Assembly: GCA_002691145.1 (NCBI GenBank)
Contig: NZHE01000029.1
Location: 19,246-60,409, forward strand
Direction of reading: 5' to 3'
Origin: Rickettsiales bacterium
GTDB taxonomy: Bacteria; Pseudomonadota; Alphaproteobacteria; Methylaequorales; Methylaequoraceae
Length of the DNA: 41,164 nucleotides
Shown here in pieces: positions 29,487-29,932 of the stretch. Positions within the stretch are counted from its first letter, which is position 1. Each line of letters opens with the position of its first letter. The position numbers and the translations under genes were made by a program. The notes beneath the pieces are model-generated. The model saw nothing but the letters and a program-made list of their open reading frames with translations. It had not been told where the DNA came from and did not search any database.

Positions 29487-29518
29487 ACTTAGGTTCCTCT
29501 CATATAATAATGTTAGTA

Positions 29519-29580
29519 CGGCAATACACCATACACGGCCTCGTTATCATTGCCGGCCGACAGCAGTAACAGTATTTATG
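29519..29580 (-). promoter_or_regulatory. CATAAATA promoter and pseudoknot-capable leader
   Basis: CATAAATA (29573-29580) lies 86 nt before the fibre gene ATG. The leader contains CGGCC (29555-29559) pairing with GGCCG (29536-29540), and a second stem from 29549-29555 (CGGCAAT) with 29519-29525 (ATTGCCG). The stems cross, so they form either an H-type pseudoknot or two alternative folds. Confidence 0.5.
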
Positions 29581-29584
29581 TTTA

Positions 29585-29818
29585 TTATGTGCCAATAACT
29601 AGATAGTGTGCCCATTGTGGTGGTAACCACTGCAATATCCATGCCCTATTACGCCACAATAGGTATAAATCATCTAGTTCTATCTGGTCTAAATTTTTAA
29701 ACTGCACTCTAAAATATGGCCAGTCGTAGGATGTCAATACCAAATCAAAATCATCCTCGCCTTTGAATACCCTTAGGTGAAGATATTTGTACCTATTTTC
29801 TTTTATAAGTTTTTTCAC
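29585..29818 (-). CDS. 77-residue protein under a glutamine riboswitch-like leader
   Basis: The frame starts with GTG at 29816-29818, supported by AGGAGAGG just upstream; there is no earlier ATG. It encodes MKKLIKENRYKYLHLRVFKG, then EDDFDLVLTSYDWPYFRVQF and many aromatic residues up to ILQWLPPQWAHYLVIGT. No signal peptide, membrane segment or family is recognised. It lies between two fibre genes and has its own TATAAATA promoter. The regulation suggests a nitrogen-linked role. In cyanobacteria the same RNA class controls small glutamine synthetase inactivating factors, but these have different, basic sequences. A phage analogue that tunes host glutamine metabolism is a hypothesis only. Confidence 0.7.
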   Translation of the reverse strand: MKKLIKENRYKYLHLRVFKGEDDFDLVLTSYDWPYFRVQFKNLDQIELDDLYLLWRNRAWILQWLPPQWAHYLVIGT

Positions 29819-29877
29819 GCACCTCTCCTGTTGGTGCGTTCCTTCGGTTGCCCTACTTCCGTCCTGTGGATGAACGT
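29818..29877 (-). promoter_or_regulatory. Glutamine riboswitch (glnA/Downstream-peptide class)
   Basis: The minus-strand leader carries the conserved core of the glutamine aptamer. ACGTTCATCC opens P1 and P2, GGACGGAAGTAGG holds the invariant junction, then CCGAAGGAACGC closes P3 and P1. P1 pairs 29872-29876 with 29837-29841. Directly downstream CGCACC (29833-29838) pairs with GGTGCG (29818-29823) around AACAGGAGA, so the Shine-Dalgarno is in the loop and the GTG start is in the stem. This stem shares two nucleotides with P1, so ligand-bound P1 should weaken it. That suggests glutamine turns translation on (inference). Confidence 0.85.
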
Positions 29878-29882
29878 AAAAG

Positions 29883-29890
29883 TATTTATA
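29883..29890 (-). promoter_or_regulatory. Late promoter TATAAATA of the riboswitch gene
   Basis: An exact late octamer on the minus strand immediately upstream of the aptamer. The expected start point falls at the first aptamer bases, so the transcript begins with the riboswitch. Confidence 0.75.
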
Positions 29891-29896
29891 AATCGT

Positions 29897-29932
29897 AAAA
29901 AAAAACGGGTCTACATTCCTGCAAACCCGTTT
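29897..29932 (-). terminator. Intrinsic terminator after the 337-residue fibre gene
   Basis: Stem AAACGGGT/ACCCGTTT (29903-29910 with 29925-29932, 14-nt loop) with nine consecutive T residues on the minus strand. It lies 20 nt past the stop and isolates the riboswitch unit. Confidence 0.85.

Follow-up and report, generated by a model that had tools for sequence, protein, structure and literature searches.

A glutamine-riboswitch-family aptamer between a late-promoter motif and a conserved 77-residue protein in a marine phage: a candidate late translational switch

A locus of a large marine phage, on the minus strand of the DNA analysed here (a stretch of 41,164 nucleotides, referred to as the window), raises the question of whether glutamine controls the synthesis of a small protein late in infection. 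The original prediction listed a late promoter, the core of a glutamine riboswitch, a hairpin and a 77-residue ORF. Each of these elements was found on the minus strand, where the order is terminator, late promoter, aptamer, hairpin and GTG-started ORF. The features of the locus are given below.

29903..29932, minus strand: intrinsic terminator with a 13-pair stem and a T tract, which ends the transcript of the upstream 337-aa fibre-like gene
29883..29890, minus strand: putative T4-type late promoter TATAAATA, a motif whose place is kept in homologues
29833..29878, minus strand: glutamine riboswitch aptamer (RF01739, glnA/type 1), a covariance-model match
29876-29872 with 29841-29837, minus strand: aptamer P1, CGUUC/GAACG
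29870-29868 with 29864-29862, minus strand: aptamer P2
29817..29839, minus strand: expression platform hairpin of 7 bp, ACGCACC (29839-29833) with GGTGCGT (29823-29817), loop sequence AACAGGAGA
29829-29825, minus strand: Shine-Dalgarno AGGAG in the hairpin loop
29585..29818, minus strand: 77-aa ORF with a GTG start at 29818, 77 codons and a stop that ends at 29585
29487..29580, minus strand: intergenic region 3' of the 77-aa ORF, with its own ATAAATA from 29579, ahead of an 895-aa ORF

The riboswitch core listed in the prediction was recovered by the covariance-model search that had been proposed as its check. RF01739 matches 29878-29833 on the minus strand with 50.0 bits (gathering score 35) over the full model (1-53 of 53) and an E-value of 3.6e-8, computed over 4227 Rfam families. 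This is the sole Rfam match in the 41-kb window at gathering thresholds, and RF01704 (Downstream-peptide) was found to be below its cut-off everywhere in the window. Where other homologue loci were scanned, RF01739 scored 50.9 to 55 bits, and the conserved core of the aptamer was observed to be unchanged across homologues. In addition, all cells of P1, P2 and P3 are paired across 10 distinct leaders, with one compensatory pair in P1. A chance match was rejected on the basis of this score and conservation. We regard the element as confirmed, at the level of sequence, to be an aptamer of the glutamine-riboswitch family, for which glutamine would be the ligand.

The promoter had been described as followed at once by the aptamer. 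The order is as described but the two are not adjacent, as six bases separate the promoter from P1 and a CTTTTA spacer lies between TATAAATA and the aptamer elements CGTTCATCC, GGACGGAAGTAGG and CCGAAGGAACGC. On its own, TATAAATA does not occur above chance in the window (4 found against 4.2 expected) and therefore its weight comes from its position and conservation. The predicted late promoter before the aptamer is supported by its place, where ATAAATA or CTAAATA was observed to be kept in the homologue loci, and by enrichment across the 120 listed viral sites that were usable for this test, in 68 of which the late-promoter motif ends 4-10 nt before P1 (0.7 for random positions). By analogy with T4 geometry, the +1 position is predicted at about 29877, the base preceding P1. 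A T tract resembling that of the window is visible just 5' of the promoter in most relatives, as seen in the upstream DNA of the homologue loci. On the other side of the ORF, the intergenic region 29487-29580 is conserved in locus L003, and the 895-aa ORF, which is fibre-like by position and composition, probably lies in a separate transcription unit. A special RNA structure in this region was ruled out, as its folding is ordinary (z 0.7).

Three loci with a homologous protein were found in a first IMG/VR scan and 16 in a profile scan, from which L245 (truncated) and L231 (the window's own contig) were left out. L230, which has the same protein, comes from a different metagenome contig, L233 is the contig of L058 and L234 is that of L003. 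A full-length homologue is present in 14 other IMG/VR loci, which amount to 12 distinct ORFs, all 12 of them starting with GTG. The upstream DNA of all 14 loci carries the late-promoter motif (ATAAATA/CTAAATA), the aptamer core, the hairpin in the form CGCAC...GTGCG (or GTGTG) and GTG. The late-promoter motif, aptamer, sequestering hairpin and small protein are thus conserved together in every one of these loci.

Ten representative homologues are 56-73% identical to the 77-aa protein of the window. Pairs with unsaturated synonymous sites give dN/dS values of 0.07-0.09, and against the window protein, where synonymous sites are saturated, pN is 0.17-0.27; the ORF is therefore under purifying selection and encodes a real protein. 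Its predicted structure consists of four strands followed by two helices (AlphaFold, mean pLDDT 83). The proposal that the small protein is new agrees with the libraries searched, since no usable match was found in PHROGs, Pfam, NCBIfam, PADLOC or PDB sequences, and hence none to PF14105 (DUF4278 / IF17-like) in Pfam. A relative, L232, gave an irrelevant weak Pfam hit only, and some other phage peptides match PF14105. Isolate phages and GTDB genome contigs gave no homologue, and Foldseek with the AlphaFold models gave no significant structural match. A likeness to AcrF1 was weak (E 0.5-0.8, TM about 0.47) and was dropped as evidence.

In the leader, the hairpin ACGCACC/GGUGCGU overlaps P1, as the P1 3' strand ends in the ACG with which the hairpin begins. 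Because these bases are common to both, the complete P1 and the complete hairpin are mutually exclusive. At its other end, the hairpin closes with the G and U that open the GUG codon, and the predicted placement of the start codon within the stem is therefore correct for these two bases but not for the third, which lies outside. By computation, this expression platform is coupled to the aptamer, as it has three bases in common with P1 and an opening cost that changes with P1. In a folding model that takes account neither of tertiary structure nor of coaxial stacking between P1 and the 4 bp left of the hairpin, opening positions -12 to +3 of the window leader costs 10.2 kcal/mol with P1 forbidden and 4.0 kcal/mol with P1 forced. 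The cost is lower with P1 forced in 10 of 10 tested leaders of the window's family, the effect being small in L238 and L243. Stacking between P1 and the hairpin could keep the site closed with glutamine bound.

The leader folds better than its shuffles (z -2.2). Covariation in P1 consists of one double change, CG to GC in L243 and L244, and that in the hairpin of one double change, UA to CG in the window, with all cells paired. Slid controls are lower on cells paired, and shuffle controls reached the observed values in 16 to 500 of 500, depending on the measure. Since the shuffle controls are not clearly beaten, we take the covariation in a family of this small size as no more than suggestive.

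In a set of 91 distinct phage leaders, the hairpin arms were observed to vary together (CACC/GGTG, CACT/AGTG, CATC/GATG and CAATC/GATTG), and the mean stem among these leaders from the matches listed is 5.18 against 4.57 (sd 0.07) with the arms re-dealt, kinship being ignored. The ribosome site is also blocked more strongly in these wider phage leaders than in their shuffled counterparts (p about 1e-13, kinship again ignored). Forcing P1 in the wider set opens the site no more than in shuffles (median difference 0.5 versus 0.1 kcal/mol, p 0.5). As the wider set is without a general coupling between P1 and opening cost, we claim the ON direction for the window's family only. The idea that all phage versions are ON switches was rejected, as this test gives it no support, and in the folding model a clear ON geometry is limited to the family of the window and a few others.

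In the model that we favour, the late promoter would start the mRNA at or beside the first aptamer base. Without glutamine, the P1 3' strand (ACG of GAACG) would instead pair with leader bases further on, and the resulting ACGCACC/GGUGCGU would close the ribosome site with the Shine-Dalgarno in its loop and the GU of GUG in its stem. When glutamine binds, P1 (CGUUC/GAACG) would be held and would take back the three bases, and the blocking hairpin would then shrink to CACC/GGUG and allow ribosomes to start the 77-aa protein. This protein would most likely be a late host-directed or metabolic modulator made at plentiful glutamine and not a virion part. We consider it reasonably probable that the locus is such a late-expressed, glutamine-activated translational riboswitch controlling a modulator of this kind. 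The model builds on the computed aptamer family, promoter position, hairpin, strand overlap and protein conservation, while glutamine binding, the ON direction, the transcription start and the role of the protein are the steps that we infer. Types 1 and 2 of the cyanobacterial glutamine riboswitches have been described as activating upon binding (PMC6316151).

The same riboswitch might act in the opposite direction, with the glutamine-held P1 stacking on CACC/GGTG so that the site is closed and synthesis of the protein goes with glutamine shortage. Many other phage leaders would suit such an OFF switch, as their hairpin follows P1 directly, the two overlapping slightly or not at all, and is not weakened when P1 is forced. 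The window's family, however, shares three P1 bases with the blocking hairpin and keeps GTG in all 12 ORFs, which fits competition, and the glutamine riboswitches that have been studied activate (PMC6316151); we therefore regard the OFF direction as unlikely. A decayed or ligand-shifted aptamer, in which glutamine sensing has been lost and only the blocking hairpin matters, would be consistent with the 50 bits of the window element against the 59.3 bits of the presumed host copy in the same assembly, and with its short P2 and P3. Such a loss seems very improbable given that the core is unchanged across homologues and that P1 is compensated in L243 and L244.

The protein could also be glutamine-switched and yet help to assemble tail fibres or act as a structural accessory. 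The gene, which would be read late, sits between fibre-like genes in the window and in L238, and beside one in L058, but the L244 homologue has no recognisable fibre gene beside it and adjoins a second glutamine-switched peptide, and no PHROG fibre family matches the 77-aa protein at a usable E-value. We find the accessory role possible but doubtful. A late host-directed modulator is favoured because of the neighbours of the L244 gene, but this role is a guess, since neither the homologues nor the fold searches were informative.

The window is part of a contig (C2) of a 2.03-Mb alphaproteobacterial assembly. Near-identical 4.4-kb copies of the locus are found on contigs C2, C10 and C26 of this assembly, and these are perhaps strain variants or an assembly effect. 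The other aptamer of the assembly (59.3 bits) lies in a stretch of 27% GC and precedes a circularly permuted ATP-grasp gene (PF14403), the nearest relatives of which are from uncultured marine alphaproteobacteria. An aptamer precedes the ATP-grasp gene in 18 of the 19 relatives' loci read, the exception being L208, and an aptamer match was found in 23 of the 60 genomes searched, all 23 in the same family. Aptamers before this gene were observed across the alphaproteobacterial family, outside cyanobacteria (L004 and L209-L226). The original description of the class as mainly cyanobacterial is not supported by this assembly and its relatives. A cyanophage origin was rejected on the basis of the assembly and of the nearest sheath proteins, the phage tail sheath being closest to those of jumbo phages such as Paride and PA5oct. 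From the shared assembly only, we infer that its bacterium is the phage host.

Phage-borne glutamine riboswitches had also been taken to be rare, which is at odds with the at least 120 viral contigs found to carry such aptamers in an IMG/VR pattern scan and with the phage cases already published (PMC9004378, PMC9964418). Most aptamers among the matches listed precede basic peptides of 26-81 aa. We analysed 136 aptamers, 13 of which are the first of a tandem pair, and the ORFs downstream among the matches listed encode 104 distinct peptides with a median length of 41 aa, a median net charge of +7 and YRG in 19; as these short ORFs were chosen by rule (Shine-Dalgarno and start), single assignments may be in error. 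Two YRG peptides were scanned for DUF4278, a domain that spans the N-terminal region of IF17, the factor that inactivates glutamine synthetase (PMC6316151); one exceeds the cut-off and the other matches with a score under it. The 77-aa protein of the window is unlike these peptides.

Several arrangements were observed beside these counts. Tandem glutamine aptamers precede one small ORF in L021, L026, L110, L116, L119, L123 and L125, and L244 (4926-5536) carries two back-to-back units, each made up of a late-promoter motif, a glutamine aptamer and a short ORF, 78 aa long in one and 64 aa in the other. In the cyanophage loci L228 (1011-1109) and L229 (1001-1220), the aptamer contains a long insert, and an annotated ORF overlaps this insert in DSL-LC02.

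We lean slightly towards a reading in which a modular late cassette is common to the marine T4-like phages of cyanobacteria and of heterotrophs and gates late host-modifying proteins by glutamine level. To this the window would add a so far undescribed protein family, together with a platform in which P1 and the start codon compete. The shared cassette would consist of a late promoter, a glutamine aptamer at the extreme 5' end, a ribosome-site hairpin and a swappable mini-protein. It could give lytic phages a testable route to read the host nitrogen supply late in infection, and such a route would span marine heterotrophs as well as cyanobacteria. The analysis also defines a conserved protein family without a match in the libraries searched, and suggests that annotation overlooks tiny phage genes under glutamine switches; the isolate Melnitz, in which the riboswitch was assigned to tmRNA, would be one example.

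Both glutamine motifs were described by Weinberg in 2010 (PMC2864571), and a 2018 review treated them as restricted to cyanobacteria and activated by glutamine (PMC6316151). Glutamine riboswitches have been published for the phages Melnitz, Mosig and AG-345-P14 (PMC9004378) and a glnA riboswitch for S-CREM1 (PMC9964418), and Riboswitch Scanner detected no riboswitches in one survey of pelagimyophages (PMC7029224). Because phage glutamine riboswitches are already published, novelty is confined to the protein family, the P1/start-codon platform and the breadth, which appear to be new within the libraries searched.

Among the closest systems is glnA RNA or type 1 (RF01739, cyanobacterial gifB), which is like the window in aptamer sequence, P1-P2-P3 layout and a small protein downstream. 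In contrast to gifB, the window has a predicted phage late promoter beside P1, a P1 3' strand that would pair with the start codon, a protein unrelated to IF17/DUF4278 and an assembly that is not cyanobacterial. The Downstream-peptide or type 2 motif (RF01704) resembles the window in having a small ORF of no known family directly 3' (17-100 aa, PMC2864571), whereas the window matches RF01739. Methylophilales phage Melnitz (PMC9004378) is, like the window, a T4-like marine phage of a heterotroph with the same aptamer and a ribosome-site hairpin. In its sequence (L227, MZ577097.1, 1500-1669), a tmRNA match ends at 1492, the aptamer occupies 1500-1548, and beyond it lie a CACTT...GAGTG hairpin and, directly behind this, a 32-aa ORF that is not annotated (MTLYQQWCYLKAQKEYRRRQKILMYFRIRLKG). 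This switch was reported as controlling tmRNA, and the 32-aa ORF belongs to a different peptide family from that of the window. S-CREM1 (PMC9964418) shares with the window a phage-borne aptamer and a small ORF next to it, but it is a cyanophage, its aptamer carries an additional insert, and the small peptide has YRG and resembles DUF4278.
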